From the NCBI GenBank assembly GCA_010672425.1, contig JAAHGR010000001.1, forward strand, positions 1 to 32,047: a DNA stretch of 32,047 nt, written 5' to 3'. Origin of the DNA: Symploca sp. SIO2E6. Its GTDB lineage: Bacteria; Cyanobacteriota; Cyanobacteriia; Cyanobacteriales; Coleofasciculaceae. The position numbers and the translations under genes are program-made. The notes under the pieces were generated by a model. The model saw nothing but the letters and a program-made list of their open reading frames with translations, ran no database searches and was not told the origin of the DNA. Below, piece by piece: positions 1,311 to 28,302 of the stretch (the stretch's first letter is position 1; every line of letters begins with the position of its first letter).

Positions 1311-1320
1311 CTGGTATTGA

Positions 1321-1743
1321 TGGGGAGGTGGGGAGGTGGGGAGGTGGGGAGGTGGGGAGGTGGGGAGATGGGGGAGACAAGGAAGACAAGGAAGACAAGG
1401 AAGACAAGGAAGACAAGGAAGACAAGGAGATATTTACACTCACCAATTCTCAATTCTCAATTCTCAATTCTCAATTCTCAATTCCCAATTCCCAATTCCC
1501 AATTCCCAATTCCCAATTCCCAATTCCCAATTCCCAATTCCCAATTCCCAATTCCCAATTCCCAATTCCCAATTCCCAATTCCCAATTCCCAATTCCCAA
1601 TTCCCAAACAACAAACAACAAACAACCAACAACAAACAACAAACAACAAACAACCAACAACAAACAACAAACAACCAACAACAAACAACAAACAACCAAC
1701 AACAAACAACAAACAACAAACAACAAACAACAAATGACAAATG
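1321..1743. repeat. Composite low-complexity element: (TGGGGAGG)n, (GACAAGGAA)n, linker, (CAATTCT/CAATTCC)n, (CAACAAA/CAACCAA)n
   Basis: Tandem units visible directly; open in all three + frames and in - frames. Confidence 0.95.
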
Positions 1744-3713
1744 ACAAAATTACCATTGAGCAACTCCAGCGGGAGATACAGCAACGTCAGCAGGTGGAAA
1801 AGGAACTTCGCAAGAGTCAGGCACTCTATCAAGGTATTGTTGAAGATCAAAGGGGATTAATCTGTCGTTTTTTACCTAATGGCAAAATTACTTTTGTTAA
1901 CCAAGCCTACTGCCATTATTTCGGCAAGCAGCCAGAGGAGTTGATTGGCTGCCAGTTTTCACACCTCATGCCGGTGGAAAACTCACCCCTTTTAGCAGAT
2001 ATAATGGCTGGTCTGAGTCCGGAAAAACCGGTATTTACGGCGGAATATCAGGTTATTTTACCTACTGGTGAGGTGCGTTGGCATCAGTGGACGATTCGTG
2101 GTTTCTATGAAAGCGAATTGGCAGGCAGTAGTGTGCTGGAGACCAATTGCTTGTTTAAGTTACAGGCAGTAGGTTGGGATATCACTGAACCCAAGCAAGC
2201 GGATCAGGTACTTCGGGTAAGTGAGGAGAGATATCGGTTGTTGGCAGAAAACTCCACTGATTTGATTTCTCGCCACGACTTAGCAGGGGTTTATCTTTAT
2301 GCTTCACCGGCTTGTCGTACTTTACTCGGTTATGAACCGGAAGAATTAGTGGGATTATCTAGTCAAGACTTGATTCATCCCCAAGATTGGGCAAGTGCTC
2401 AGCAATGCCAACTTGATATTCTTCAAGCACAAGGCAGTTGTACTAGTTCCTATCGTATTCGGAAGAAAGACGGCAGTTATATTTGGTTTGAAACCACGAG
2501 TAAAACCGTGATTGCTCCAGATACTGGTATAGCTAGAGAAATTGTCTCAGTTTCCCGGGATATCACGGAACGGCAACTTTCACAAGAGCGTCTGCGTCTG
2601 TTGGAGTCAGGGATTACCAATGCCAATGATGTTATTCTGATCACCGATGCTGATACGGTTAATCGTTCTGGATTAAGAATTGTCTATGTTAACCAAGCTT
2701 TTACCCAGATGACTGGTTATTTGCCAGAAGAAGTAATTGGTAGGACACCGCGTATCCTCCAAGGTCCGAAAACAGACCGCAGCCAGTTAAATAAAATTCG
2801 GGGTGCTATCCTTAAGCGGGAACCAGTTCAGGCTGAGTTACTCAACTACCATAAAAATGGTTCTGAGTATTGGAGCGAAATTAATATTGTCCCTATTGCT
2901 AATGAGCGAGGGCAATTTACCCATTTTGTAGCTATACAGCGGGATATTACTAAGCGAAAGCAAGCCGAAGCGGAAATGCTCAAAGCATTAGCCAAGGAAC
3001 GAGAACTCAATGAACTGAAGTCCCGGTTTATTGCCATCACTTCCCATGAGTTCCGCACCCCTTTGGCGACTATCCTCTCTTCTGCGGATCTATTAGAAAA
3101 GTTTCCCTGTACAGATGAGGAAAAGCAAGAGTTGTTTCATCAAATTCAAACCTCTGTTAAGCACATGACTAGGCTTCTCGAAGATGTAATGTTCGTTACC
3201 CGTTCAGAAGCAGGAAAATTAGAATTTCGACCGATCAAGCTTGAGCTTGACCAATTCTGTCATGCTTTGGTCAAGGAAGTAGCCATTGGCGTGGGTAAAC
3301 ACCACCGGCTTTACTTCCACAGTCATGGTCAATACAGCGGCTTCATGGATGAAAAGCTACTCCGCAGCATTTTGAATAATTTGCTTGCTAATGCCATTAA
3401 ATATTCTCCCCAAGACAGCACAATAGAGCTCAAGCTTACTTGTCAGGATGACAAAGCCATCTTTCAGGTGCAAGATCGAGGTATTGGCATTCCTCCGGCA
3501 GATCAAGCGCATCTATTTGAAAGTTTTCATCGAGCTAGCAACGTTGGCACCATTTCCGGCACTGGACTAGGATTGACCATTGTTAAGAAATGTGTGGAGT
3601 TGCACGGGGGAGACATCGCTGTGGAAAGCGAAGTGGACAGGGGCACTACTTTCACTGTCACACTACCAATGAACTATGAACCATCAAAAAAAGAAAACTA
3701 TTCTGGTAATTGA
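1734..3713 (+). CDS. Multi-PAS sensor histidine kinase (open frame extends upstream through repeats to 1317)
   Basis: At least three PAS/PAC segments, His[20 protein letters not shown], HATPase [12 protein letters not shown] / [19 protein letters not shown] / [18 protein letters not shown]. Most conservative start is ATG 1734 ([12 protein letters not shown]), at the 3' end of the repeats. Confidence 0.9.
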
Positions 3714-4692
3714 AGACCAGCAAGCAATTCGCTCTAATCTTCTGAAGATCTTAAGTCATGTAGGATTCCAGACAATCGGTGCAGAAAATGGTTTAGAGGG
3801 TGTGGAATTGGCCAACAACCATTTACCAGATCTCATTGTTTGTGACATTATGATGCCAGATATGGATGGTTATGATGTGCTCCAAGAGCTGCTGCAAGAC
3901 CCAGGAACTGCTAAGATTCCCTTCATTTTCCTCACAGCCAAAGCGGATAAGTCAGATATTAGGGAAGGAATGAATCTTGGGGCAGATGACTATCTCACCA
4001 AACCATTTACTAGCGATGAACTCATCGACACTGTCTTGGCTCGACTGGCAAAACTCGAAGCGATCACTCAACCCTACCTAGAGGACATCAAACAAGCTAA
4101 AGATGCGGTAGAGCAAATAGTAGATAACATCCAGGAAACGGCAGTTCAGGTGAGCAAGTTATCCTATCGGGACTCACTGACTAATCTGCCTAACAGGAAA
4201 GCACTACTTGACTGGTTGCCAGGAGTCCTTTCGGAGGCACAACAACAACAAGAGCAGGTGGCTCTTCTGTATGTGAATTTAGACGATTTTCGCAGTATTA
4301 ATGGTAATTTGGGACAAGCAACTGGAGATTTATTGCTCCAAGCTGTAGCAGAAAGGTTGCAAGATGCAGTGGCAGAACAAAATGCCGTTACTCGCATCGG
4401 TGGGGATGAATTTTGCCTGATCCTGGTGGGGATGCTTGAGAAAAAAGAGGTTGCCAAATCGGCTCGCAATCTCCTTAACTCCCTCACTCAACCCTACTCT
4501 CTCAATGGTCAGCAAGTATCTGTTCAAACTAGTATTGGTATTGCCCTCTATCCCAAGAATGGTAACAATCCAGATCAACTACTGACAGCAGCAGATCAAG
4601 CAAGACGCTTTTGTCGGAGCCAAGGAGGTGGCAACTATCAGTTTTACAACTCAATGACGGCTAGGCTTAATGATGCCTCGTTGATTCGCTAA
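3676..4692 (+). CDS. Response regulator with GGDEF diguanylate cyclase domain
   Basis: REC domain ([43 protein letters not shown]) and RIGGDEFCLIL signature; overlaps the kinase 3' end by 38 bp, suggesting translational coupling. Confidence 0.92.
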   Translation: MNHQKKKTILVIEDQQAIRSNLLKILSHVGFQTIGAENGLEGVELANNHLPDLIVCDIMMPDMDGYDVLQELLQDPGTAKIPFIFLTAKADKSDIREGMNLGADDYLTKPFTSDELIDTVLARLAKLEAITQPYLEDIKQAKDAVEQIVDNIQETAVQVSKLSYRDSLTNLPNRKALLDWLPGVLSEAQQQQEQVALLYVNLDDFRSINGNLGQATGDLLLQAVAERLQDAVAEQNAVTRIGGDEFCLILVGMLEKKEVAKSARNLLNSLTQPYSLNGQQVSVQTSIGIALYPKNGNNPDQLLTAADQARRFCRSQGGGNYQFYNSMTARLNDASLIR

Positions 4693-4833
4693 ACGGGAGC
4701 TCTCTTATTTCTTTTAGGTAACATCGGGTGTCATCTACCCCACACTAGAGCGTCAGTCCAGTAAAATCAACTTAAACCAATGCCAAATCTCTGTTGTTGG
4801 GTTTCGCAAAAGCTACACCCAACTGACAAGTCA

Positions 4834-5055
4834 CTATAAAAGTGCTACAAACTCTTCAACGCTCAACTTAATATCCCGAATTATTGCTCTTAATGTCCCC
4901 TTAGCTAACTCTGAGTGATTGGGAACAACAACTTGGGCAAATGGTTCATCCCTTCGCATAATAATGTGACTGCTTTCTTGCCGCCTTTGATAGAAACCAA
5001 TTTTTTCCAGAGCCTTGATACACTCTTTACCCGAAATACTAGGCAACTTACTCAC
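4834..5055 (-). CDS. hicA: HicA-like (YcfA) mRNA interferase toxin
   Basis: 73 aa; KLPSISGKECIKALEKIGFYQRRQESSHIIMRR..VVVPNHSELAKGTLRAIIRDIKLSVEEF, typical HicA with GSHHI-type catalytic region. Confidence 0.88.
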   Translation of the reverse strand: MSKLPSISGKECIKALEKIGFYQRRQESSHIIMRRDEPFAQVVVPNHSELAKGTLRAIIRDIKLSVEEFVALL

Positions 5056-5270
5056 ACAACCACCAAGAATGTTTCAAAATCTTCTTCTGGAATAGATAAG
5101 CCATCCTCATCTAAAGCAGCCACGTAACCTACTATAGCTTCCTTGATATTGGAGAGAGCCTCTTCTTTCGTTCTTCCCTGACTATTGCATCCCTTGAGAC
5201 TTGGGCATTCCACGATCCAATAATCATCTTCATCTTTGTATAAAATGACCTGTCTTGTATACTGGCTCAT
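5052..5270 (-). CDS. hicB: HicB-like (UPF0150) antitoxin
   Basis: 72 aa; DDYWIVECPSLKGCNSQGRTKEEALSNIKEAIVGYV; overlaps the following toxin start by 4 bp. Confidence 0.87.
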   Translation of the reverse strand: MSQYTRQVILYKDEDDYWIVECPSLKGCNSQGRTKEEALSNIKEAIVGYVAALDEDGLSIPEEDFETFLVVV

Positions 5271-5445
5271 AAGCGCAATAGATAATTATTTCTACATTTT
5301 ACCCTTAAACGAGCAACAAGTGATCGCTTATACTGTAGCGTGGGATGAAGCGACAGCAGAGAGTGATAGTGAGCTGTGCGATCGCAAATTTTGTTTCCTG
5401 TATTAACCTCACAGTTCCTATAATTGTCTCTCCTTACCTAGCAGT

Positions 5446-5467
5446 AGGGGCGTATTGCATACGCCCT
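5446..5467. repeat. Short palindrome AGGGGCGTATTGCATACGCCCT
   Basis: Arms GGCGTAT / ATACGCC; followed by a CAATTCT heptamer patch at about 5480-5500. Confidence 0.7.
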
Positions 5468-5490
5468 ATTGCATACTTGATTCTCAATTC

Positions 5491-8400
5491 TCAATTCTCC
5501 ATATATGCAATCACCTCGAAAATCTGCTCAAGTATAGTTGCATATTCCCCATTGGTAATAGTAGGAGTAGTAGATCCGGATTCAATAATCGCATTACCAA
5601 TAGCACTTTGTGCCTGTCCATTAAGCACCTTAATCAATTCTTCAGGGGTTGTGTTGTTTTCCTGAGCAATGCTACTGAGTTTAGCAGCGGGAGCATCTTC
5701 TTGAGTAATAGCTTTGAGCACCTCCAACTGATGTTTTGGCAATGCCAAGATGAATTCAGTCCAGACAGATGCTAAATCATCTTCCAATTCAGGATCTTCA
5801 AACTGCTGCTCCTCCATACCAACCCATTGTGTTGATATTTCTTCGGTGGGTATCTCATCTTCATTTACAAATTCATCCTGCAACGCTGCAAAAGCAGCCC
5901 ATTCAGGGGGTAAATCTTCGTCGGGTAGTAATCCTTGTGTAACTGTTTCAGTAACTGGAGTCGCTGGCGCTGGTGCAGGATGGTTCCTGAAAGTTTCTTC
6001 TAGTTGTTTTCTTTGTTCCTCAAGTTGGTTGACTTCTTGCTCGAGTATTTCTTTGTGGTTGTATTGGGCTGTAAATTGAGCTTGTAAGTCTGATAAATCT
6101 TTGGCTAGTTGCTGTTTTTGTCCTTCAAGAGTGGTTAATTCCTCCTCCAACTGCTGCTTTTGTTGTTGAGGTTGAGTTAATTGAACCTTTAACTGGGATA
6201 AATCTGTGGTTAATTGCTGTTTTTGTCCCTCAAGAGTGGTTAACTCTTCCTCCAACTGCTGTTTTTGTTGTTGAGGTTGAGTTAATTGAACCTTTAACTG
6301 GGATAAATCTGTGGTTAATTGCTGTTTTTGTCCCTCAAGAGTGGTTAACTCTTCCTCCAATTGCTGCTTTTGTTGTTGGGGTTGAGTTAATTGAACCTGT
6401 AACTCGGATAACTCTGTAGCTAGTTGCTGTTTTTGTCCCTCAAGAGTGGTTAACTCTTCCTCCAACTGCTGTTTTTGTTGTTGAGGTTGAGTAAGTTGAG
6501 TCTGTAACTCGGATAACTCAGTAGCTAGTTGCTGTTTTTGTCCCTCAAGAGTGGTTAACTCTTCCTCCAATTGCTGCTTTTGTTGTTGGGGTTGAGTTAA
6601 TTGAACCTTTAACTCGGATAAATCTGTGGTTAATTGCTGTTTTTGTCCCTCAAGAGTGGTTAACTCTTCCTCCAATTGCTGCTTTTGTTGTTGAGGTTGA
6701 GTGAGTTGAGCCTGTAAGTCCGATAAATCTGTAGCTAATTGCTGTTTTTGTCCCTCAAGAGTGGTTAACTCTTCCTCCAACTCCTGCTTTTGTTGTTGGG
6801 GTTGAGTGAGTTGAGTCTGTAATTCCAATAACTCAGTAGCTAGTTGCTGTTTTTGTCCTTCCAGAGTGGTTAACTCTTCCTCCAACTCCTGCTTTTGTTG
6901 TTGAGGTTGAGTTAATTGAGCCTGTAATTCCGATAAATCTGTGGTTAATTGCTGTTTTTGTCCCTCAAGAGTGGTTAATTCTTCCTCCAACTGTTGCTTT
7001 TGTTGTTGGGGTTGAGTAAGTTGAGCCTGTAATTCCGATAAATCTGTGGCTAGTTGTTGTTTTTGTCCCTCAAGAGTGGTTAACTCTTCCTCCAACTGTT
7101 GCTTTTGTTGTTGAGGTTGAGTGAGTTGAGCCTGTAAGTCCGATAAATCTGTGGTTAATTGCTGTTTTTGTCCCTCAAGAGTGGTTAACTCTTCCTCCAA
7201 CTGCTGTTTTTGTTGTTGGGGTTGAGTTAATTGAGCCTGTAAGTCCGATAAATCTGTGGTTAATTGCTGTTTTTGTCCCTCAAGAGTGGTTAACTCTTCC
7301 TCCAACTGTTGCTTTTGTTGTTGGGGTTGAGTAAGTTGAGCCTGTAATTCCGATAAATCTGTGGCTAGTTGTTGTTTTTGTCCCTCAAGAGTGGTTAACT
7401 CTTCCTCCAACTGCTGTTTTTGTTGTTGAGGTTGAGTGAGTTGAGCCTGTAATTCCGATAAATCTGTGGCTAGTTGTTGTTTTTGTCCCTCAAGAGTGGT
7501 TAATTCTTCCTCCAACTGCTGCTTTTGTTGTTGGGGTTGAGTGAGTTGAGTCTGTAAGTCCGATAAATCTGTGGTTAATTGCTGTTTTTGTCCCTCAAGA
7601 GTGGTTAACTCTTCCTCCAACTGCTGTTTTTGTTGTTGAGGTTGAGTTAATTGAGCCTGTAAGTCCGATAAATCTGTGGTTAATTGCTGTTTTTGTCCCT
7701 CAAGAGTGGTTAACTCTTCCTCCAACTGCTGCTTTTGTTGTTGGGGTTGAGTTAATTGAGCCTGTAATTCCGATAAATTTGTGGTTAATTGCTGTTTTTG
7801 TCCCTCAAGAGTGGTTAACTCCTCCTCTAACTGTTGCTTACTAACCTGTTTTTCGGAAACTTTACTTTCCAGCTGTTCAAACTCTTGAATCTGAGTTTGT
7901 AAGTTATCTAAATCGGTTTCTAGCTGGGAGTTGCGACTTTCCAGAATGACTATATTTTGCTGGAGTAGTTCTTGTTGATGATGTTTGGCGGCAACTTGGC
8001 TTTGTAGCTGACTGAGTTCGATGTGTTGATCTACAAGAGTCTGAACCTGAGCTTGTAGACTATCTGATTCCTCTGTTATCTGGTACTCAGTCTCTTTAAG
8101 ATTGGTAATTTCTTGCTCTAGCTCCTGTTTATACTGAAGCTGCTCAGTAACTTGAGTTTGTAGCTGCTCCAATTGGGTTTGTAGATTCTTCTTTTGTCTT
8201 TCTATATCCTGTAGTTGACTCGTGAGCTCTAATGCAGTTTGATTACCCTCTCTTTCTCTTTCTTGGAGGGATTTCAGTTGTACTTTTAGATTGGAAGATT
8301 CAATTTCACTCTGCTGCTTTTGCCCATTGAGAGTCGCTAGCTCCTGATGCAGTTCTTGTTTTTGTTGGTTGAGTTCAGAGACTTGGCTTTGTAGCTGGGT

Positions 8401-8712
8401 TTTTTTTGCGGTTAAAGTATTAACACTGCCTTGAGTTTTTTCCTTGGCAGTTGTTGCCGTATCCAGGGATTCAGATAGCTTGTTTTTTTGTTCGTCTAGC
8501 TTTTGAATTTCGCTGAGCAAAGAATTTTTGTTGCGTTCTTCTCGATTAGTACGCTGTTTGTCTAGCAGGGCTGTTCCTGCACCAATAACGGAGCCGGTAA
8601 TTGCACCATTCAGAAGCGCCTTGTCTTGCTTTAATACGGAACCAAATATAAGACTGACAAGGAAGGCAACTACACCTAAAACAATGGGATTGACTACCTT
8701 AGATGATGACAT
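5491..8712 (-). CDS. Membrane-anchored long coiled-coil repeat protein with TerB-C-like C-terminal domain
   Basis: N-terminal hydrophobic segment (VVNPIVLGVVAFLVSLIFGSVL), long coiled coil including 17 consecutive 35-aa repeats, and C-terminal WTEFILALPKHQLEVLKAITQ..LSSIAQENNTTPEELIKVLNGQAQSAIGNAIIE..EYATILEQI resembling TerB-C. Confidence 0.85.
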   Translation of the reverse strand: MSSSKVVNPIVLGVVAFLVSLIFGSVLKQDKALLNGAITGSVIGAGTALLDKQRTNREERNKNSLLSEIQKLDEQKNKLSESLDTATTAKEKTQGSVNTLTAKKTQLQSQVSELNQQKQELHQELATLNGQKQQSEIESSNLKVQLKSLQEREREGNQTALELTSQLQDIERQKKNLQTQLEQLQTQVTEQLQYKQELEQEITNLKETEYQITEESDSLQAQVQTLVDQHIELSQLQSQVAAKHHQQELLQQNIVILESRNSQLETDLDNLQTQIQEFEQLESKVSEKQVSKQQLEEELTTLEGQKQQLTTNLSELQAQLTQPQQQKQQLEEELTTLEGQKQQLTTDLSDLQAQLTQPQQQKQQLEEELTTLEGQKQQLTTDLSDLQTQLTQPQQQKQQLEEELTTLEGQKQQLATDLSELQAQLTQPQQQKQQLEEELTTLEGQKQQLATDLSELQAQLTQPQQQKQQLEEELTTLEGQKQQLTTDLSDLQAQLTQPQQQKQQLEEELTTLEGQKQQLTTDLSDLQAQLTQPQQQKQQLEEELTTLEGQKQQLATDLSELQAQLTQPQQQKQQLEEELTTLEGQKQQLTTDLSELQAQLTQPQQQKQELEEELTTLEGQKQQLATELLELQTQLTQPQQQKQELEEELTTLEGQKQQLATDLSDLQAQLTQPQQQKQQLEEELTTLEGQKQQLTTDLSELKVQLTQPQQQKQQLEEELTTLEGQKQQLATELSELQTQLTQPQQQKQQLEEELTTLEGQKQQLATELSELQVQLTQPQQQKQQLEEELTTLEGQKQQLTTDLSQLKVQLTQPQQQKQQLEEELTTLEGQKQQLTTDLSQLKVQLTQPQQQKQQLEEELTTLEGQKQQLAKDLSDLQAQFTAQYNHKEILEQEVNQLEEQRKQLEETFRNHPAPAPATPVTETVTQGLLPDEDLPPEWAAFAALQDEFVNEDEIPTEEISTQWVGMEEQQFEDPELEDDLASVWTEFILALPKHQLEVLKAITQEDAPAAKLSSIAQENNTTPEELIKVLNGQAQSAIGNAIIESGSTTPTITNGEYATILEQIFEVIAYMEN
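6056..7842 (-). repeat. 17 x 105-bp in-frame tandem repeat (35-aa unit KQQLEEELTTLEGQKQQLTTDLSDLQAQLTQPQQQ)
   Basis: Copies counted in the ORF translation; DNA copies nearly identical, edges approximate. Confidence 0.93.
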
Positions 8713-9023
8713 AATAGTTTTTTTGTGAACAAAGTAAATTTTTGCTGGAGATAGGGTTCAACTTGCCAAGGATTTGATTGACAAAAATTGACAAAATAGG
8801 TATCCTTCTCTCTTTCCCAAGTTATCACCCAGCCTAACAGCTTATACTGGTTATGTCTGCAATATCTTTCCCTGATGAGTGACAAACGGCTAAATCTGCT
8901 CACATCAGTTGATTAACGGACTTGCAGTACATCCAGAATGTCTATTGTGAGAGTTTCTCTATACTTTATTCTTCTCTACTCAGTGAAATTCCGGTTATTT
9001 TGCTAAAATTTTGATTAAATTTT

Positions 9024-9051
9024 TTTTAATTTTTAATTTTTAACTTTTAAT
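9024..9051. repeat. 4 x heptamer TTTTAAT
   Basis: TTTTAAT TTTTAAT TTTTAAC TTTTAAT read directly. Confidence 0.8.
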
Positions 9052-9085
9052 TCGCCGTCGGGCGCTCATTACTTCCTACTACCAC

Positions 9086-9865: not shown

Positions 9866-9916
9866 AATTTTATTCTTAAGCTTATCCTATTAAATAAGAA
9901 TTTTTGGTGTGAGCAA

Positions 9917-11041: not shown

Positions 11042-11143
11042 ATAAGTTTTCAAGGTTCTAAGAAAAGCTGACTCTGATTTTATGAGGAATCCGGATTTAT
11101 TTTAACAAGTCTGGTATTGATTATAAAATCGGAGGAAGCCGAA

Positions 11144-12208: not shown

Positions 12209-12407
12209 GTACCACATGCTAAATGGGGTCTGCTGAATAAGTCGATTGATTTGGGTTTTGAAGTAATGAGCATTATATATCTCCAGAAAAGAACCTGAAA
12301 CCCTTATATTACTTAAGGTCAATATTGAGTTTTTGGAGATGTCATTCATGTTAATCTCAAAATAGGCAACTCTCAGACTATTAGCGTTTGCCAAGGGAGC
12401 CTAGACT

Positions 12408-15028: not shown

Positions 15029-15234
15029 ACATTATTCAGACTGACAAGTGAATAGTGTACAGTTTAGGGGAGAAACAACAAACAGCAAAAAGAAGGGAAC
15101 ATAATATTGAGCAACTAATACTACATATATACTGATAACGTAAGTTGCTAGTTACAAGTATCAGCGTGTTGAGATCCCCCCTAACCCCCCTTAACAAGGG
15201 GGGGACCGGATTTCAAGTCCCCCGTGGAACTAAA

Positions 15235-15421
15235 AGCCTAGCATCCTCTGGCGAACCGTGGAAGTCAAAGCGTAGTATCGTCCGGCGAACCGTGGAAGTC
15301 AAAGCGTAGTATCGTCCGGCGAACCGTGGAAGTCAAAGCGTAGTATCGTCCGGCGAACCGTGGAAGTCAAAGCGTAGTATCGTCCGGCGAACCGTGGAAG
15401 TCAAAGCGTAGTATCGTCCGG
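15235..15421. repeat. 34-bp tandem repeat, about 5 copies (AAGCGTAGTATCGTCCGGCGAACCGTGGAAGTCA)
   Basis: GGCGAACC starts at 15250, 15284, 15318, 15352 and 15386, exactly 34-bp spacing; first copy diverged. Confidence 0.93.
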
Positions 15422-15435
15422 CTTCCCCCTTTCAA

Positions 15436-15500
15436 AGGGGGACGGGAGGGGGATTCCAAGGGGGACGGGAGGGGGATTCCAAGGGAGACGGGAGGGGGAT
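15436..15500. repeat. 23-bp tandem repeat, 3 copies (GACGGGAGGGGGATTCCAAGGGG)
   Basis: GACGGGAG starts at 15441, 15464 and 15487. Confidence 0.85.
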
Positions 15501-15573: not shown

Positions 15574-18500
15574 ATGACGGATAATCCCCAGAATCAACCA
15601 CCAGAGTCCAATTCTACTAATCCAGAATCAGCAGTTGTCCCCAACAGGGTACTACGCTTCCCCCTACGACGTATTTTAATCGGTTCGTTGGTGGTAGTCG
15701 TCGTTGGTATTGGGGGTGGTATCGTTGGCGCTTTGATTTTTATTCAACAAATGCTCTCACCCTTGGTGGAGAAGGATTTGACCCGTTTACTGGATCGTCC
15801 CGTGGAGATTGGGGAGGTAGAAAGCTTCTCTATTAATGGTTTGCGCTTTGGTGCTGCTGCTTTGCCTGCAACCGCGACGGATTCGGATCGAGCTACGATT
15901 GAGGCAGTGCAGGTGGCCTTTAACCCGGTGAAACTCCTGTTTAATCGTATCCTAGAACTGGATATCACTCTGATTAATCCGGATCTCTATGTGGAGCAGG
16001 ATGCTAACGGTGTCTGGATGGCGACGAAAATTAAGGAGTCGGGAGAAGAGGGGCTGCTGAAGGTTGAGGTGGGGAAAATCCGAGTGCGTAATGCTGATGT
16101 GGTCTTAGTGCCTCTGGGTAATCGGGGTAATCCTAATGATCCTGTGGCGGTTGTTGTGCCTCACGGTAAGGTGACATTGTTGGAGGATGGCAAGCGACTG
16201 CGTTTTGATGTCGAGGGTCAGCTGGTGAATGGGGGGGATTTCACTCTTAAGGGGGAGGACTATCGTCCCACGGAGTCAACTAATGTGATGGTTTCGGCTC
16301 AGGATGTAGAGGTGATGGAGGCGGGTAGGCTGATTCAGTTACCCTTGATACTGCAAGCTGGTCAAGCCTCTGGCAATGTGGAGTTGCAGTTACGACCTAA
16401 TCAACCTTTGGGGTTGTTTGGTGTCTTAAAGATTAAAGATTTGACAACACAAATAGCTCAGTTGCCTCAGCCTTTTAGTAAGAGCAATGGCCTGTTGCGT
16501 TTTCAGGGAACGAAGGTTGGCTTGGATCGGGTTACGGGAGAATTTGGTAAGATTCTCGGTGAGGTTAATGGTGTCCTTGATACGGAGGGGGAGTTTAACC
16601 TGGCGGTACAAACCCAACCGGTGACGGTGAAGCAGGCTTGGGAAACTTTGAAGCTGAATAAGTTGCCGGTGCCGGTGGTGGGTAAGGTGAAGACGGATTT
16701 GCAAGTAACTGGACCGGTAGATCAACCGATCGTTTCTGGTAAACTGGTTAATACTAATGTTACTAAAGTCGATAAGGTTGATTTTGACAAGGTTAGTGCG
16801 GATTTTCGGTTAACGACTGCTGACCAAAAGTTGCAGGTTAATGAGTTACAGGCACAACCAACGGCTGGCGGCTTGGTGAAGGGTAAGGGAGAAGTTGGTT
16901 TAGGGAAGAACTCGAATTTAGTCTTCGCTCTTCAGGCTAACCAAATTCCAGGAGACGCGATCGCTTCCCTCTATGATATTAAGTTACCCCTGCCCCTAGG
17001 ACCAGTTTCTGGTAAAACGCAAGTAGTAGTGCCTCTGGCGAATAGCCAGAATTATCGTGCCGAGGGTAGTGCGAATCTTAACCTGGCTGGTGGTTCTGTG
17101 CAACTGTCGAATCTACAGGTAGCCGGGGGACGTTGGCAAGGGTTAGCACAGTTGCAAAATCTGGCTTTGAGTCAGCTGACACCGGATCTGCCACCGAAAT
17201 TTGAGGGACGCTTCACTGGTGCCTTTAATCTGGCAGGGACTCTGGCTTCTTTTAAACCAGAAGATATTACTGCTATTGGTGCTGGTAACCTGAATGTGGT
17301 GGGTGGCTTAGTCAGTTTAACTAATGTGCAGCTGCAACAGGGTCGAGTTTCTTCCCTGGTAAGGGCTTCTGGTATAAAATTAGAGCGTCTTGCTGAAGTA
17401 CCACCCCAATGGCGCAGTCCAGTCGATGGTCAGTTCAATTTAGTTGCAGATCTAGATGACTTGACTTTATCCGGGATTAGTGGTAAAGGTTCTGGTAGAA
17501 TCAATCTTGCTGGTGGTCGGGTCATCGCTAATGAAATCCAGTTATCCCGTGGTCGTTGGCAAGGGGTGGTACAGGCAACTAGTTTGGACTTAGGGCGTCT
17601 GACCCCGGAGATACCACCAACTTTAAAGGGGCCTTTCAGTGGTACATTTCAGGTAGCGGGTAGTCTGGAAGATCTCTCACCGAAGACCATTACTGCTATT
17701 GGTGGTGGTAGGCTAAATGTAGCGGGAGGTGTAATCAGAGCCTCTAATTTTAGGTTAGCAGCAGGACGTTGGCGGAGTAATGTAGAAGCTAGTCGGGTGA
17801 CTCTGGAAAGATTAGTACCGGAACTTCCCCCTCAAATCAAAGGACCTTTCAGTGGTAGCTTCCAAGCTTCTGGCAATATCGAGGAAATCTCACCGAAGGC
17901 GATTAATGCTGTTGGTGGTGGTAGCCTGAATATTGCAGGAGGTACTGTGAGACTCTCCAACTTGAAGTTAGCCGCAGGCAATTGGCGGACTAATGCAGCA
18001 GCGGATCGGGTAATATTGGGTAGCTTAGTACCTCAACTTCCCCCTCAATTTAACGGACTCTTCAGTGGTAGTTTCCAAGCTACGGGTGAGATCGATCGCA
18101 TCTTGCCGGATCAAATTAAGGCTACTGGTGGTGGTAATCTGAATGTGGCAGGAGGTGTGCTGGGATTCTCCGACTTGAACTTAGTAGCAGGGAATTGGCA
18201 AACTAAGGTAGCCGCCAACAGGGTGAGAGTCGGCAGTTTAGTACCCCAGTTACCACCTCAATTCAATGGACTCTTCACCGGTAGCTTCCAAGCTTCCGGC
18301 AAGATCGACCAAATCGCCCCCGATACTATTAATGCTACTGGTGGTGGTAACCTTAACCTAGCGGGAGCCACTCTCCAAGCCTCGAACTTGAACTTAGTAG
18401 CAGGCAATTGGCGGACTAACGTTACAGCTAATGGTGTCAGCTTAGGTAGTTTAGCACCCCAGTTACCTCCTCAATTCAGCGGTCCTTTCACTGGTACCTT

Positions 18501-21500
18501 CCTCGCTTCCGGCAATATTAACGATATCTCCCCCAATACCATCAGTGCTGCTGGTAGTGGTAGCCTCAAGGTAGCAGGAGGTACCCTGAGGGCAACTCAA
18601 CTTAGCCTTAATTATGGTAACTTACAGGCATTAGTAGAACCAAATGGTATTCAGTTAAGCAGCTTTTCCCCCGATCTTGTTGGTAGTTTAGGTGGTAGGG
18701 TTAAGGTATCTGGTAGTATCCGCAATCCCACACCAGTGGCTCTTGGACAATCCTTACGTGCCGAAGGTATACTCAATTTTAGTCAAGGATTGGCTGTCAT
18801 CCCAGGACCTCTGGCTACAGAATTTCGTTGGACTGGGGAAGGGATAGAATTACAACAGGCTCAAGCACCAGGATTAGCGGCTAGGGGTTTTATTGGGGTG
18901 AATGTCGCTACTCTCACCAATCAACCGGGTTCATTAGCAGCTATCAATAATTTGGATTTGGATGTAACGGCAACAGATTTGAATTTAGCGAAACTGCCGC
19001 TTCCCGCCGCTGACTTTAAGGTAGTGGGTTTAGCGGATTTTGCTGGTAAGATTGCTGGTACTCCCACAGCTCCCGATGTTAATGGTAAACTAGCCTTAAA
19101 GGATTTTGCCATTGATGGTCTCAAATTTGACCCCCTACTCACTGGTACCGTAGCAGCAGTACCAGGAACAGGAGTAAACTTACAGTTGGCAGGAACAACT
19201 AGGGAGGATCAGATTCAGCTGGCTCTCGACTCCAACTATCAGCCAGTTTCCTTCTATATCCAGGGAAGGCAGCTGTTTGCTGAAGGTAGTAGTCAGGAAG
19301 AGGAATTATTAGCAGTTGCTAAAGGTACCAGGCAAGGGGAAATCCTTTCCGTAGAAGCAGAAAACTTCCCCATCGGTTTCCTCAAAGAAGTCACACCCCT
19401 ACCTGCACCCATTGCCTCCCAACCCCTCTCCGGCAAACTTTCCGGCGATTTAGCCGTCAACCTCAACAACTTTGGTATTGAGGGAAATGTCGAGATTGCT
19501 GAACCGATCTTTGGTACTCTCCGAGGGGATATCTTTAGTGCCAAGTTAGCCTATCAACCCAACGGCAACATTGCTCTCACCGATGGGAAATTCCAAAAAG
19601 AGAACCGGGAGTACCTCCTTGCCGGTAACTTCATCCCCACTACCCAAGGTCCAGAATTTGCTGGTAAACTCCAGGTAGTCCAAGGAGAATTGCAGGATGT
19701 CCTTACTGCCCTGCAATTCTTCGACTTGCCGGATCTCAATCGCCCCGGGTTATTTCCTAGCTATGACGGAGCTGCCGACCTTAACATTGTACCAGTAGGT
19801 TCTCCAGAAAGTTCCCTACAAAACCAACTCCGGCGTCTAGCGGAAATCGAGCAACTCCTCAAGCGACAGCGGCAACAACGGGAAGAAGCTTCCCCCCTAC
19901 CAGAATTTGCCCAAGCTACAGGTAGCTTCACCGGTACAGTCAACCTCAATGCTTCTCCAGCCGCTGGCATCCAAGCAGATTTTGACCTGGCGGGGGAAGA
20001 TTGGCAATGGGGTGACTACAGCGCTCAAACTATGGTTGCCAAAGGGGAATTCCAAAATGGTGTACTCACCCTCCTACCATTCCGCTTAGCCTCAGGAGAA
20101 AGTTTAGCCAGCTTCTCCGGTAGTATCGGCGGGGAAAACCAATCCGGTCAGTTACAATTAGGTAATCTACCGGTGGCTCAAGTGCGAAGCTTGCTAGAAG
20201 AATTTGTGGAGTTACCCCCTGCCGTCGGCTTTGGTGGCTTAATCAATGCTACGGCAACCCTTTCCGGTAGTATCAGTAATCCCCAAGCTAGAGGGGAAGT
20301 AAGAATTAGCGATGCTACCTTAAACCAGGAGGATGTGGAAGAAGTAAAAGGAGGCTTTAACTATAGTAATGCTCGCCTCAACTTTGGTACTACCATCCGC
20401 CTCGTTGCCGATGCTGAACCCTTAAGTATCGAAGGCAGTATTCCCTACCAATTACCCGTTGCTACCGTAGCACCAGAATCCAAGAACCTCAGCCTCAACA
20501 TCGATGTAGAAAACGAAGGATTAGCCTTATTAAACCTGTTAGTGGGGCGTCAAGTTGCCTGGGTAAAAGGGGAAGGTACCGGAGATGTCAAATTATCGAT
20601 TAATGGTATCTATGACCAAGCAACTAATCAAACCGAAGCCCTAATCGCCCAAGGGACAGCTGTAGTCAACAATGCTACCATTAAAGCCCAAGCTCTACCA
20701 GAACCTTTAACTAACGTTACCGGTAACGTCGCCTTCAACTTAGACCGCATTGAAGTTGTAGACTTAGAAGCTAACTATGGTGGCGGTAAAATTACCGCCT
20801 TAGGAACTATCCCCATTAATCAACCCACTCCCCAAGAAAATCCCCTAACTGTAAATATAGGAGAACTAGAAATCAATCTCAAAGGTATTTACAGCGGCGG
20901 TGTTCAAGGGGGAGTAGTAGTAGCTGGTACTGCCCTAAGTCCAGTTATTAGTGGTGAATTGGACTTGTTTGATGGTCAAGTAAAACTAGCAGAAGAGCGT
21001 CAGCCAACCACCACAGATGATGCTACGACTAACTCTCCCATTCAGTTTAATAACTTAAAACTATTATTAGCTCGCAACATCCAAATTAGGCAAGACCCTC
21101 TCCTCAATTTCCTTGCCTCCGGCAACCTAATTCTCAACGGCTCTTTAGATCAGATCCTTCCCCAAGGTATCATTGCCCTAGACAGAGGTCAAGTCAATCT
21201 CTTTACCACCCAATTCCGCTTAGATAGACGCTACGAAAATACAGCTATCTTCACTCCCAATCAAGGATTCAACCCCGATTTAGATATACAGTTAGTAGCA
21301 TCGGTACAAGAAACCAATAGATTGCGCCGTTTAGGTAGTACCGCTGCCGTCGGTAGTCTCTCCACAGAGATTAGTGACGACTTCTTAACCAGCGATTTTG
21401 GCAGTAGTCAAACTGTTCGCATTCAAGCTAAAGTACAAGGACCGGCTGATGAATTAGTAGAATCTTTAAGGGGAACCGAAGACCAATTTAACGAGAGTCT

Positions 21501-21918: not shown

Positions 21919-22192
21919 GGGTTTCAGTACTGAAATTGATTGCTCTGGCTTACGGTATTAAGTATTTTTGATGCATAGTGCAAGATTTAAGCTCATCCCA
22001 CGACTAAAGTACGTTGGATGCAAGCGTTAGCAAGTTGTTGGTTGTTAGTTGAATGTTTAAGAAAAACAAAAAACAAACAACAAACAACATTTGCGAATGC
22101 AAAGCATGGTGAGCAACGCTCGGCAAAGCGGCGGGCGACTATCCCTCCCATCTAGAGAAGGAATGGGCTTCCCGCCGATGCACGGTGAGTAT

Positions 22193-22224
22193 AAAAAAAG
22201 ACTCCTGCCTTTTAGCACAGGAGC
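22193..22224 (-). terminator. Rho-independent terminator downstream of psbC
   Basis: On the minus strand: GGCTCCTG-TGCTAAAAGG-CAGGAGTC followed by TTTTTTT. Confidence 0.8.
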
Positions 22225-22272
22225 CTATTGAATTGTTTAAATACTTACAGCTACTTGCTGCAATTGAAGAAC

Positions 22273-23658
22273 CTAGTCGATATCAGGCATAGCCAAAGCT
22301 GGTTCAGCTTCTCGGTCAATACCTTTCTCAAATCCGGCAACTGCCGCACGAGCACGACCAGCGTGCCAGAGGTGACCAACTAGGAAGAAGAAGCCCATAA
22401 CAAAGTGGAAGGCTGCTAACCAAGCACGGGGATTAACATAGTTAAAACCGTTAATCTCAGTGATAATGCCGCCCACAGAATTGATAGAACCGTTGGGAGC
22501 ATGAGTCATGTACTCAGCGGCACGACGCAATTGCCATGGTTGAATGTCGTTCCTTAGTTTGTCAACATCCAGACCATTGGGACCCCGTAGAGGCTCCAGC
22601 CAGGGACCTTGGAAATCCCAGAAGCGCATGGTTTCACCACCGAAGATAATTTCACCGGTAGGAGAACGCATCAGATACTTACCAAGACCTGTAGGACCTT
22701 GAGAAGTCGCAATATTGGCACCTAGACGTTGGTCACGAGCCAAGAAGACAAAAGACTGAGCTTGGGAAGCTTCAGCATTAGTTGGACCGTAGAATTCGCT
22801 AGGATAGGCGGTGTTGTTGAACCAAACGAACATGGAAGCAACAAAGCCCATGAGGGACAGGGCACCCAAGCTGTAGGAGAGATAAGCTTCTCCAGACCAG
22901 ATGAAAGCACGACGAGCCCAACCAAAAGGCTTAGTCAGCAGGTGAAAAACACCACCGGAGATGCAAATCAGACCAATCCAGATGTGACCACCGATGATGT
23001 CTTCCATATTGTTGACACCAATGATCCAGCCTTCACCACCGAAGGGAGCACTCAGCAAATAACCAAAGATAACTCCAGGATCTAGGGTTGGGTTAGTGAT
23101 GACACGAACATCACCACCCCCCGGTGCCCAGGTGTCATATACACCACCGAAGAACATGGCTTTGAGCACCAGCAAGAGAGCTCCACAACCTAACATGATT
23201 AGGTGGAAGCCGATGATGCTGGTCATCTTGTTCTTGTCTTTCCAGTCGTAACCAAAGAAGTCAGAGTACTCTTCTAAGGTTTCAGGACCACGAATGGCGT
23301 GATAAATGCCACCAAGACCAAGGACTGCCGAAGAAATCAAGTGCAGTACACCAACCACAAAATAAGGGAAGGTGTTGACAATTTCGCCACCAGGTCCAAC
23401 ACCCCAACCTAGAGTGGCTAGGTGAGGCATCAGGATTAAGCCCTGTTCGTACATAGGCTTTTCTGGGATGAAGTGAGCCACCTCAAACAAGGTCATGGCT
23501 CCAGCCCAAAAGACAATTAGTCCAGCGTGGGCAACGTGAGCCCCCAACAATTTACCAGATAGATTGATTAAACGGGCGTTACCAGCCCACCAGGCAAAAC
23601 CTGATGATTCTTGGTCACGATTCCCCGCAACTATAGAACTACCAGAAAGTGCTACCAC
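22273..23658 (-). CDS. psbC: Photosystem II CP43 chlorophyll apoprotein
   Basis: [86 protein letters not shown]. Start placed at GTG 23658 ([16 protein letters not shown]) with AGAGG 9 nt upstream; the ORF opens further to 23679. Confidence 0.97.
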
Positions 23659-23742
23659 TTGGTAATACCTCTTCAACAATGATGAACAAGAAGTGACGAA
23701 TGCTGAAAGCGAGAGAGTTCAGCACTCATCCAAAAGAAAATG

Positions 23743-24801
23743 TTACAGAGCGTTACCGCGAGGAAGAACTTCCTCAGGAAACTCGAAGTGCTCATGGGGT
23801 TGGTCTTGAGGAGCCATCCAAGCCCTCAAACCCTCATTGAGCAGAATGTTCTTGGTGTAGAACGTCTCAAACTCTGGGTCTTCAGCCGCACGGATTTCTT
23901 GGGATACAAAGTCATAGGCTCTCAGGTTCAGAGCTAATCCCACAATCCCTACTGCACTCATCCACAAACCGGTTACTGGTACAAACAACATGAAGAAGTG
24001 TAGCCAACGTTTGTTAGAGAAGGCAATGCCAAATATCTGTGACCAGAAACGGTTGGCAGTTACCATGGAGTAGGTCTCTTCCGCTTGGGTTGGGCTGAAA
24101 GCACCAAAGGTGTTAGATTTTTCGCCGTCTTGATATAAGGTGTTCTCCACCGTTGCTCCGTGGATGGCACACAACAAAGCTCCACCTAAGACACCAGCTA
24201 CTCCCATCATGTGGAAGGGATTGAGAGTCCAGTTGTGGAACCCTTGCAAGAACAGCAGGAAGCGGAAAATTGCCGCTACCCCAAAGCTGGGTGCAAAGAA
24301 CCAGCTTGACTGTCCCAAAGGATACATCAAGAAGACGCTGACAAATACCGCGATCGGGGCGGAGAAAGCAATAGCATTGTAAGGCCGTAGTCCGATCAAG
24401 CGGGCGATTTCAAATTGCCGGAGCATGAAACCGATTAAGCCAAAGGCGCCGTGGAGGGCTACGAAACTCCACAGTCCTCCAAGTTGACACCAACGGGTGA
24501 AGTTGCCTTGAGCCTCAGGTCCCCAGAGGAACAGCAGGGAGTGACCCATGCTGTCAGCAGGACTAGATACTGCCACAGTTAGGAAGTTGCAACCTTCCAA
24601 GTAGGAGGAAGCCAAACCGTGGGTGTACCAAGAGGTAACAAAGGTTGTACCGGTGAGCCAGCCCCCCAGAGCCAGGAAGGCACAGGGGAATAGTAGCAGA
24701 CCAGACCAACCAACGAAGACAAAGCGGTCTCGTTTGAGCCAGTCGTCGAGGACGTCAAACCATCCTCTCTGACTTGGTGCTCTTCCTAGTGCTATGGTCA
24801 T
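23743..24801 (-). CDS. psbD: Photosystem II D2 protein
   Basis: Near-canonical D2: [60 protein letters not shown]. Confidence 0.98.
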
Positions 24802-25100
24802 AATTTCAAATCCTCTTACCTTACTAACTAAATGATTTGCAAGGATTTCGATATTGGCGCTTTCGCGCTTTTAACCGACATTTCCACAGCCGTAACTGTG
24901 AAACTCCTCGAAGGTCGGTTAGTTTAGCTAACTCGAGCTTCAAAGCAGGTGTCCGGCGATCGCTTACCACAAGATGTTATTTAAACCAGTGGTCGCTTAA
25001 TGTTTCTTAACTTATCACATTGTTACACTGTTTTCACAATCTTCTTTTCAGAAAGACAGCTATGGCAGCGCTTATTTTAATAATAATGAATATCATAAAT

Positions 25101-25118
25101 TTTACAAATTGATACATA
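25101..25118 (+). promoter_or_regulatory. Candidate HLR1-like direct repeat (RpaB-type site) in the psbD/ycf4 divergent intergenic region
   Basis: TTTACAAA-TT-GATACATA against the published HLR1 pattern (G/T)TTACA(T/A)(T/A)-NN-(G/T)TTACA(T/A)(T/A); one mismatch. Confidence 0.35.
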
Positions 25119-25226
25119 ATTCTTCAGATTTTCTTTAGATTAGCCCTCTCTTAGCCAAATTGGCAAGTCTGGAAGTGTTTCACTCCATCCATTGCGGATG
25201 CGATACTAAAGTATCTGTGCAGAATT

Positions 25227-25802
25227 ATGATCATGACAGCAGTAACAACAACCCAAAAACAGGGCAACCTAATTCTTCAGCCAGTTTTAGGCTCCCGTCG
25301 GTTTAGCAACTATTGGTGGGCAACAATTGTCTCTTTCGGAGGTGCAGGCTTCTTCTTAGCAGGGCTTTCTAGCTACTTTAAAGTCAATTTACTTCCTGTT
25401 GGTGATGCAACGCAACTGCTGTTCATTCCCCAGGGAGTAGCTATGGGGTTCTACGGTATTGCTGGTCTGCTTTTGGGGATTTACTTGTGGCTGCTTATCC
25501 TTTGGGATGTGGGAGGTGGTTACAATGAGTTCAACAAGGAAACAAGCATGGTCAAGATTTTTCGCTGGGGTCTTCCAGGAAAGAATCGTCGGGTAGAATT
25601 CAGTTGTCGTATACAAGATGTTCAGTCGATTCGAGTAGAGATTAAAGAAGGTATCAACCCCCGCAGAACTCTCTACCTCCGTGTTAAAGACCGCAGAGAA
25701 ATTCCTCTAACTCGAGTTGGACAGCCAATATCACTGTCGCAACTGGAAAATCAAGGGGCAGAGCTTGCTCGTTTCTTGGTAGTTCCCCTTGAAGGATTGT
25801 AA
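25227..25802 (+). CDS. ycf4: Photosystem I assembly protein Ycf4
   Basis: GSRRFSNYWWATIVSFGGAGFFLAGLSSYF..LLPVGDATQLLFIPQGVAMGFYGIAG..WDVGGGYNEFNKE..FRWGLPGKNRR. Confidence 0.96.
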   Translation: MIMTAVTTTQKQGNLILQPVLGSRRFSNYWWATIVSFGGAGFFLAGLSSYFKVNLLPVGDATQLLFIPQGVAMGFYGIAGLLLGIYLWLLILWDVGGGYNEFNKETSMVKIFRWGLPGKNRRVEFSCRIQDVQSIRVEIKEGINPRRTLYLRVKDRREIPLTRVGQPISLSQLENQGAELARFLVVPLEGL

Positions 25803-25828
25803 TCTAAGTAGCTCGACACCATCTAGCT

Positions 25829-25905
25829 CAATACTGCTCGGATAAGCCCCAATTCTTCTTCCCCAGTTCATCTTTACGATTACTTCTCTTAACCGAGCAG
25901 TATTG
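25829..25905. repeat. Inverted-repeat element (CAATACTGCTCGG / CCGAGCAGTATTG, 13 bp perfect)
   Basis: Arms at 25829-25841 and 25893-25905; half-copy CTTAACCGAGCAGTAT also near 146-160. Confidence 0.75.
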
Positions 25906-25940
25906 CCATCTACCTACCCAAACACAGTTTACATAAGGCA

Positions 25941-26729
25941 ATGCAAAATGATTTAGTGGCTAAGGCCAAAACTAACGGTGAATTAAACATGCATATCAAA
26001 ATCCAGCGCTGGCTATCATTAGTATTGGTTTTGGGTGTTCTGGTTTTAGGAGGGTGTGGCACGCCTGAGTCGGCAGCTTTAGACCCTGCAAACTCCTCAA
26101 CCGCTGAAACAGAATCTACTTCTGTCACTCAAAACCCTAGTTCCCAAGTAAGTGATCTCCCCAGGCTAGAAGGAAAAGCTACAGTGGTGTTGACGGTTAA
26201 AGACTCAAAGATCACTATTGAAGTAGATGGAACTAATGCTCCAATTACAGCAGGAAATTTTGTTGATTTAGTAGAGCGAGGGTTCTATGACGGACTGGTG
26301 TTTCACCGCGTAGTACCAGATTTTGTTGTTCAGGGTGGTGACCCTCAAGGGAAAGACCCAAATTTTCCAGTAGAACGTTTGGGAACAGGCAGTTTTGTCG
26401 ATCCAGAAACTTCTCAAGTTCGTTATATACCTTTGGAAATAAAGCCCAAAGGTGCCGACACTCCTATTTATAGCAAAATTGTAGATACTGTATCTACTCC
26501 TATTGAGTTACAGCATACTCCTGGTGCTGTTGCTATGGCTCGCTCCCAACCCCCAGACTCTGCTTCTTCTCAGTTTTACATTGCTTTGTCACAACTGCCT
26601 TCTTTGGATGGTCGTTATGCTGTCTTTGGTTACGTCAAAAAAGGTATGGAGGTTGTAGACACAATCCAACGAGGTGATCAGATTGAGTCAGCCAAGGTTA
26701 CTCAAGGCAGTGAAAACTTAAAAAAATAG
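25941..26729 (+). CDS. Cyclophilin-type peptidyl-prolyl cis-trans isomerase, predicted lipoprotein
   Basis: NFVDLVERGFYDGLVFHRVVPDFVVQGGDPQGK..SQFYIALSQLPSLDGRYAVFGYV; likely start ATG 25989 (MHIKIQRWLSLVLVLGVLVLGGCG lipobox). Confidence 0.93.
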   Translation: MQNDLVAKAKTNGELNMHIKIQRWLSLVLVLGVLVLGGCGTPESAALDPANSSTAETESTSVTQNPSSQVSDLPRLEGKATVVLTVKDSKITIEVDGTNAPITAGNFVDLVERGFYDGLVFHRVVPDFVVQGGDPQGKDPNFPVERLGTGSFVDPETSQVRYIPLEIKPKGADTPIYSKIVDTVSTPIELQHTPGAVAMARSQPPDSASSQFYIALSQLPSLDGRYAVFGYVKKGMEVVDTIQRGDQIESAKVTQGSENLKK

Positions 26730-26803
26730 CGGTTTCCTAGCAAGTTGCAAACTTCTTACCAAATCCTGGTTAGTTACCCGGTGTTTTGAGAAAACCGCGA
26801 AAT

Positions 26804-26837
26804 CCTGTAGAGACGTTGCAGGCAACGTCTCTACAGG
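26804..26837. repeat. 34-bp near-perfect palindrome CCTGTAGAGACGTTGC-AG-GCAACGTCTCTACAGG
   Basis: 16-bp perfect arms, 2-nt centre; resembles GTAGAGACGTTGC repeats common in cyanobacteria. Confidence 0.85.
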
Positions 26838-26862
26838 GCTGGATATAACGGATTCATATATA

Positions 26863-26889
26863 CCGGATTTGGTATCATATCAAATCCGG
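26863..26889. repeat. CCGGATTTGRTAT palindromic dispersed repeat, copy 1
   Basis: CCGGATTTGGTATCATATCAAATCCGG; related sequences at about 26987, 28301 and 30887. Confidence 0.7.
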
Positions 26890-27027
26890 CTAAACACTTA
26901 TCCTATCCTTCTACCTTACAACCTTCTTTCTTCCCTTGGAGCCTTCTGCCTTGGAGCCTTATTGCCACCGAAGTGTAACTATTCCACCGGATTTGATATC
27001 ATATCCCTCTTGTGCTCTTTATTTCCC

Positions 27028-28302
27028 TTGTCCTTAAACCAAATAGTTGTTACTGGTATCGGTTTAGTCTCTGCTTTGGGTGGACTCAAACCTAGCTGGC
27101 AGCGTCTGCTTGCCGGTGAATCTAGCATTAAAATACACCAACCTTTCCCAGATTTATCCCCCCGACCCCTGGCATTGATTAATCAGACATCATCTGCTTT
27201 GGAAGAACTCACCCAGCTAGCTGTAGCAGAGGCACTTCAGGATGCTGCTCTAGAAATGCCGCTACCAGATTGCGGTGTTGTAATTGGTTCAAGTCGTGGT
27301 TGTCAAGCTTCTTGGGAGCAACTGGCGAGGGGGATGGGAGGATGGGGGGATGGGGAGATGGGGAGATGGGGAGACAAGGGAGATCTTGACACTTACCAAT
27401 TCCTTACTTCCCATTCCTCATTTCCAAACGACAAACAACAAACAACAAACAACAAACAACAAACGACAAACAACAAACAACAAACAACAAACTTAGAACA
27501 TTGGTTAGATCTGCTTCCCCACCAAGCCGCGATCGCAACTGCTCGTCAGGTGGGAGCCATCGGTCCAGTACTAGCACCAATGGCAGCTTGTGCCACTGGG
27601 ATTTGGGCGATCGCTCAAGGCTTTGAACTAATCCAAACTGGTTGTTGCCAGCGAGTAATTGCTGGTGCGGTGGAAGCACCTGTCACTCGTCTGACCCTCG
27701 CAGGATTCGACAAGATGGGTGTTCTGGCAACCACTGGTGCTTACCCTTTTGATCGGCATCGGGAAGGCTTGGTTTTAGGAGAGGGAGCAGCTGTCTTAAT
27801 TTTAGAGTCAGCTGATTTAGCCTTCCGTCGAGGAGTTCCAGTTTATGGACAAATCTTGGGTTTTGGCTTGACATCTGATGCTTATCATGCTATTACACCA
27901 AATCCAGATCGGGAAAGTGCGATCGCAGCTGTAAAGCAATGTTTAGAACGCTCTCATATTTCTCCTGCTGAAATTGACTATATCCATGCTCATGGTACTA
28001 GCACTCAACTAAATGACCAGAAAGAAGCTGAACTGATGCAAAAGCTATTTCCTCAAGGTGTTCCAGTCAGTTCTACCAAAGGAGCTACAGGTCATACATT
28101 GGGAGTTTCTGGAGCTTTGGGAGCAGCTTTTTGCCTGATGGCATTGAGGCATCAACTCTTGCCTCCCTGTGTGGGGTTGCAGGAATCAGATTTTGATTTG
28201 GATTTAGTGATTAAACCGCGTCGAGAAGAAGTACAGCGGGTGCTTAATTTTAGTTTTGGGTTTGGAGGACAAAATACGGTGATGGCTCTGGGTAAGATCT
28301 AA
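27028..28302 (+). CDS. FabF-like beta-ketoacyl-ACP synthase II with in-frame low-complexity insertion
   Basis: VVTGIGLVSALGG; active-site Cys APMAACATGIWAIAQG; His motifs IHAHGTSTQLND and TKGATGHTLGVSGALG; NFSFGFGGQNTVM. No obvious ATG; TTG 27028 is the likely start (ORF opens at 26869). Confidence 0.9.
   Translation: MSLNQIVVTGIGLVSALGGLKPSWQRLLAGESSIKIHQPFPDLSPRPLALINQTSSALEELTQLAVAEALQDAALEMPLPDCGVVIGSSRGCQASWEQLARGMGGWGDGEMGRWGDKGDLDTYQFLTSHSSFPNDKQQTTNNKQQTTNNKQQTTNLEHWLDLLPHQAAIATARQVGAIGPVLAPMAACATGIWAIAQGFELIQTGCCQRVIAGAVEAPVTRLTLAGFDKMGVLATTGAYPFDRHREGLVLGEGAAVLILESADLAFRRGVPVYGQILGFGLTSDAYHAITPNPDRESAIAAVKQCLERSHISPAEIDYIHAHGTSTQLNDQKEAELMQKLFPQGVPVSSTKGATGHTLGVSGALGAAFCLMALRHQLLPPCVGLQESDFDLDLVIKPRREEVQRVLNFSFGFGGQNTVMALGKI
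27331..27491. repeat. Second copy of the composite low-complexity element, inside the ketosynthase CDS
   Basis: Same module order as 1321-1743: G-rich, GACAAGG, GAGATCTTGACACTTACCAATTC linker, CAACAAA heptamers. Confidence 0.9.

Follow-up and report, generated by a model that had tools for sequence, protein, structure and literature searches.

Ordered composites of short tandem repeats dispersed in the genome of Symploca sp. SIO2E6

Two distant loci in the first 32,047 nucleotides of contig JAAHGR010000001.1 of the cyanobacterium Symploca sp. SIO2E6 (GenBank assembly GCA_010672425.1; this whole stretch is hereafter called the window) are copies of one dispersed, polarised, non-coding composite repeat. 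The common grammar of the copies consists of G-rich 8-mers, the type of which varies, followed by (GAGACAAGG)n, the linker AGATATTTACACTCACCAATTC, (CCAATTC)n and, often, (CAAACAA)n. The original prediction, made from the letters of the window, that the two loci have the module order and the linker in common is confirmed by tandem repeat analysis (Tandem Repeats Finder, TRF), by the sequence and by a linker search; the GACAAGG that it read as a single unit at both loci is such a unit at locus 2 only, with a six-copy array at locus 1. The linker pattern matches the window exactly twice, at loci 1 and 2, even with 3 mismatches allowed (0.01 matches expected), and a search of Rfam yielded no match at either locus.

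Dispersal and strict order of the modules

The linker is not confined to the two loci, as became clear from the genome-wide search that the original prediction had proposed. In the genome that carries the window (G000), 26 copies are found at <=2 mismatches, compared with 2 matches of a backwards control pattern; the non-degenerate pattern yields 23 copies vs 0 for the control, and there are 19 and 6 copies in the two congeners, G004 and G005. None of the 19 further genomes searched in the family contains the linker.

The order of the modules is not random either. Genome-wide, GACAAGG followed by CAATTC within 34 bases gives 360 match rows, with 10 for the control, whereas the swapped order, CAATTC followed by GACAAGG, gives 10 rows, with 14 for the control, which is background. 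The number of composites in the genome, ~140, is an extrapolation from the first 100 of the 360 rows, which represent 38 distinct loci. About a fifth of these 38 loci contain the full linker; in the rest, the linker is shortened, for example to AGATATTCCCAATTC, or the modules adjoin directly. Lone CAATTC arrays plus a few full composites are found in an unbiased sample of 228 kb. Independent slippage at two loci, which the original prediction had argued could not explain the linker, is thus ruled out by the dispersal of the linker together with the strict module order. The propagating composite that it proposed instead stands with respect to dispersal, given the copies, their order and the filled and empty alleles between species described below, but not with respect to the linker as the defining unit because most composites have a shortened linker or none. 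Forward stop codons are depleted in the copies (71 vs 118 in shuffles), but openness in all forward frames was rejected as a special property, with only 9 of 37 copies fully open.

Gains and species dialects at orthologous sites

The flanks of the G000 copies were traced in G004 and G005, and the sites were then read, with filled, partial and empty states all present. Both congeners lack the composite at L015, L022, L028, L031, L032, L034+ and L034-, and at L034+, the gain is accompanied by replacement of other intergenic sequence. At L030, G000 and G004 have both junctions in common and differ in the interior, and the simplest reading is a gain of the composite, polarised by outgroups, because these have the same convergent gene pair either overlapping or nearly abutting (G005, G019, G010 and G008) or, in the other outgroups read, separated by composite-free spacers of ~60 bp or more, one of which includes a short run rich in G. 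The L030 insertion gave both convergent genes new stop codons. A target duplication of 2-3 bp (AAG) is possible at this site and is uninformative, and the other filled/empty pairs are ambiguous; accordingly, of the two signs of insertion to be sought in relatives, empty sites were found and clear target duplications were not.

Some sites are occupied in more than one species by composites that are built differently. Common composites with different modules are found at L009 (without the linker in G004), L035, L037 and L040, and at locus 1 of the window, the composite is present in G004 without the linker. Half composites occupy L014, L020 and L027 in G005 and L017 in G004; unrelated arrays occupy the same site in congeners at L041; G004 has near-unexpanded, linker-bearing copies at the L021, L033 and L036 sites; and at L131 in G004, a second composite is nested in the CAATTC array of the first one. 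Units of the GGGGACGC type are frequent in the linker loci of G000 and absent from those of G004 and G005, with the opposite trend among species for GGAGCTGG units, and the ATGTA subtype of the linker accounts for 6 of the 19 copies in G004 vs none of the 23 in G000 (Fisher p=0.005). Given these species dialects, amplification of the copies, or conversion among them, must have taken place since the species separated.

Copies inside genes

Three G000 copies lie in frame inside genes, all in the sense orientation, namely, in the gene for beta-ketoacyl-ACP synthase (KAS; locus 2 of the window), in cobN and in a gene for a GAF-cyclase. In the KAS gene, the composite is translated as an in-frame insert of ~55 residues, in a variable loop that is shorter in most of the other cyanobacteria read; a cyclase paralogue in G005 (L264) contains no insert. 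The same KAS loop of Planktothrix rubescens (L114) holds a different in-frame repeat, GVSSLWRGGED x3-4, and in several genera of the family, tandem repeats of other types, (RLKV..)n and (KQPST)n among them, lie in frame in the CobN loop (L302-L316). In the cobN loop of G019, a G-rich stretch followed by an 11-residue stretch suggests the composite grammar there, too.

How the composite spreads

The explanation that we consider best, and probable although by no means assured, is that new sites receive a copy of the whole composite, the arrays of which then change by slippage and by exchange between copies. Under this scenario, a seed of ~60-110 bp, consisting of purine-rich G tracts, GACAAGG, AGATATTTACACTCACC, CAATTCC and CAACAAA, would be copied as a unit, mostly into short intergenic gaps near stop codons and now and then into loops of conserved proteins that tolerate it; replication slippage would then expand or shrink each module, and copies would trade units within the genome, which would turn units and linker subtypes into species dialects. 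Copying as a unit is what we infer from these data. As for the route, we tentatively propose transposase-free template switching of the repair type, for which G-rich or short homologous tracts would serve as primers, because the ends are not fixed, the inserts can replace older sequence and the copies nest.

Several observations weigh against this scenario. The sites compared show neither fixed ends of the element nor clear target duplications, so that they do not establish a conventional transposable unit. Partial composites, with the 5' or the 3' half alone, could mean stepwise accretion of modules; in several of these, however, the flank is rearranged where the half is missing. Some of the empty sites could be losses, depending on the branching order within the genus, the template-switching step can only be inferred, and the genome is an 8.96-Mb fragmented draft in 1437 contigs, with array lengths that are uncertain and may be wrong.

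The most serious competing possibility, which nevertheless appears unlikely, is that no unit is ever inserted: the arrays would arise in place by slippage near stop codons, with ectopic conversion or unequal exchange imposing the modules and their order. The dialects and the overwriting at sites common to species fit this possibility, as do the abundance of lone modules and half composites in the unbiased sample and the unrelated arrays at L041. It is hard to reconcile, however, with the gain at L030, which sets all modules in order between genes that nearly abut, at a junction that is array-free in G005 and several outgroups, and with near-unexpanded copies that already contain the linker.

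Placement, predicted folding and less likely explanations

Among 55 copies from the three species, 13 lie between convergent genes compared with ~3 between divergent genes (p=0.02), and upstream stop codons are often within ~30 bases of the 5' edge of the composite. Tandem contexts are split 15 (++) vs 10 (--), which is not a clear strand bias relative to transcription. A G-quadruplex (G4) motif is present in 32 of the 55 copies, some copies show imperfect pairing between a G-arm and a C-arm, and among 8 copies folded, the prediction surpasses that for shuffles in 4 (z -2.5 to -4.9) and is not clearly better in the other half. The linker was rejected as a folded element, with a predicted fold of 0 kcal/mol, that is, none. 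Judging from these predictions, a hairpin or G4 role of the composite at transcript ends is possible.

These features could be taken to mean that the composite is kept for a function, with the G4 or the imperfect hairpin at transcript 3' ends stopping transcription or buffering it between neighbours, and a published study places Nostoc G-rich repeats near stop codons as well (PMC4692102). We regard this explanation as quite improbable: harmful insertions in promoters would equally account for the scarcity at divergent pairs, half of the folded copies do not stand out from shuffles, many sites are empty in congeners, and copies also reside inside genes. Less likely still is a miniature element of the miniature inverted-repeat transposable element (MITE) or small dispersed repeat (SDR) class, mobilised by a transposase or via RNA, in which the linker region would be mobile and the arrays secondary, for although the 22-nt linker embedded in heptamer arrays resembles the Nostoc SDR as these are reportedly organised, and presence/absence alleles exist, no terminal inverted repeats or fixed ends were seen, the linker alone does not fold, linker-less composites outnumber linker-bearing ones, and L030 offers a target duplication of at most 2-3 bp.

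Layout and surroundings of the window loci

The features of the composites and lone modules in the window are listed in Table 1.

Table 1. Composite repeats, their modules and lone modules in the window
Feature	Positions	Strand	Basis or remark
Locus 1, whole composite	1321-1748	+	G-rich array to (CAAACAA)n end
Locus 1, 5' G-rich 8-mer array (TGGGGAGG)6.6, G-quadruplex-capable	1321-1373	+	TRF, sequence, G4 motif score
Locus 1, purine-rich 9-mer array (AGACAAGGA)6	1375-1428	+	TRF
Locus 1, conserved 22-nt linker AGATATTTACACTCACCAATTC	1428-1449	+	pattern search
Locus 1, (CCAATTC)23.6 array	1443-1607	+	TRF
Locus 1, (CAAACAA)18.6 array	1605-1734	+	TRF
Locus 1, (CAAACAA)n module including its ACAAATGACAAATG end	1605-1748	+	TRF, translation
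Locus 2, whole composite	27329-27492	+	in frame within KAS gene
Locus 2, 5' G-rich 8-mer array, in frame within KAS gene	27329-27384	+	TRF, translation
Locus 2, single GACAAGG unit	27373-27379	+	sequence
Locus 2, linker AGATCTTGACACTTACCAATTC	27381-27402	+	pattern search
Locus 2, short degenerate CAATTC patch	27391-27427	+	TRF
Locus 2, (CAAACAA)9.7 array	27425-27492	+	TRF
Locus 2 host gene, beta-ketoacyl-ACP synthase, PRK05952 type	26869-28302	+	open reading frame (ORF) list, translation
Lone G-rich module	83-142	-	TRF, sequence
Lone ATTCTCA module over stop codon of minus-strand gene 5491-8712	5480-5499	+	TRF, ORF list

Two of the three lone modules that had been noticed in the window are real, the G-rich one, with neither a linker nor a CAATTC module after it, and the ATTCTCA one; the third (22062-22089) is only a weak A-rich match to the CAACAAA module. 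Locus 1 lies between the gene for an RpaB-type response regulator (499-1236) upstream and that for a PAS histidine-kinase downstream. The kinase ORF (1317-3713) is open across the entire array, and its start codon is likely to reside in the last ACAAATG units, so that the ACAAATGACAAATG end may supply it. Between the rpaB-type gene and locus 1 (~1262-1309), there is a near-perfect inverted repeat, AGCCGCCTTCTGCTAAT / ATTAGCAGAAGGCGGCT, which is partially conserved in G004.

The window contains other repeats and an RNA match. A 105-bp tandem repeat (6074-7839; ~16.8 copies, 92% match) lies inside the 1073-aa SMC/Rad50-like coiled-coil gene 5491-8712; a 34-bp tandem repeat (5.9 copies) adjoining a G-rich 23-bp repeat (15222-15500), upstream of a TamB-like gene, resembles a cluster of the long tandemly repeated repetitive (LTRR) type; and degenerate 213-bp repeats (17675-18584) are found within a 2120-aa TamB-domain gene. 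An Rfam match to IsrR, the antisense RNA of isiA, at 23058-23244 (+) lies opposite a gene of the photosystem II family (22273-23679, minus strand), which is therefore probably isiA.

Related grammars and known repeat families

Composites of the GACAAGG/CAATTC type are near background in most genomes of the wider order; the exact version is therefore genus-level, and a broader grammar, G-rich followed by CCCAAT, recurs. Arrays of GGGGA followed by CCCAATN are found in several genomes of family f33, which is probably Nostocaceae because its repeats are of the Nostoc type (99 rows in this order and 1 in the swapped order in G335; 66 and 3 in G127; 60 and 2 in G055; 36 and 2 in G095; 24 and 1 in G077; 22 and 0 in G355), and none in most other genomes of the class. 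Two of these genomes have a linker of their own, GGAAGATTAATAACCCAATGCC (32 copies in G077 and 14 in G355), which follows G-rich modules and precedes units of CCCAATG and sometimes of CAACTGA; this linker is absent from the Symploca genus. It is conceivable, if doubtful, that ordered composites of this kind (G-rich, lineage-specific linker, CCCAATN, A/C-rich tail) are a recurrent form of transposase-free mobile DNA in filamentous cyanobacteria that invades gene junctions and recurrently adds low-complexity segments to the same enzyme loops.

The best reading is that the composite is related in kind to the short tandemly repeated repetitive (STRR) sequences and the SDR. Symploca is non-heterocystous. 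STRR and LTRR of filamentous cyanobacteria are dispersed intergenic tandem repeats, with STRR units mostly of 7 bp, some of them hairpin-forming (PMC2670836, PMC2408588). The composite is similar in having tandem arrays of short (~7-bp) units at many genomic sites but differs in that several unlike arrays flank a conserved linker in an invariable order, with orthologous filled and empty sites. Furthermore, STRR have been described from heterocyst-forming cyanobacteria, whereas the nearest named relatives are Symploca sp. SIO2C1 and SIO1C2, although a similar grammar does occur in f33. According to Elhai et al. 2008, the Nostoc SDR are said to be dispersed sequences of 21-27 nt, often embedded in heptamer arrays, and SDR4-6 reportedly have a common hairpin structure. 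Compared with this description, the 22-nt linker is also dispersed (the 26 copies) and array-flanked but, among the genomes searched, is confined to the Symploca genus; it is also predicted not to fold and belongs to a larger, ordered composite. The 2008 work on SDR is cited in PMC4390886.

The 5' module of the composite, G-rich 7-8-mers near stop codons and few between divergent genes, is similar to the G-quadruplex GGGGA(C/T)T repeats of Nostoc and Xanthomonas reported by Rehm et al. 2015, which the sections consulted of that paper (PMC4692102) treat as a G-rich array alone, whereas here it is only the 5' part, followed by CCAATTC/CCCAATGC and A/C-rich arrays. Rickettsia palindromic elements, repeats of ~150 bp, are found in frame inside unrelated protein genes (PMC10969869), as the composite is in the KAS gene, cobN and the GAF-cyclase gene; the composite, however, is built of tandem arrays rather than belonging to one palindromic family, is mostly intergenic and is unrelated in sequence. 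Like MITE, the composite is small, non-coding and dispersed, with presence/absence alleles, but its ends differ among copies, without terminal inverted repeats, and no defined target duplication was found beyond the possible 2-3 bp at L030; no parent transposon turned up, and no search for an autonomous relative was made.

How cyanobacterial heptamer repeats originated and spread is a long-standing question, and the literature covered here treats the arrays singly. The present results indicate that many heptamer arrays belong to a single ordered cassette, which has species dialects and the gains of which can be polarised, and the spreading mechanism therefore becomes testable by comparison of strains. 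The repeat cassettes that are translated inside KAS, CobN and a cyclase amount to a natural experiment in loop tolerance.

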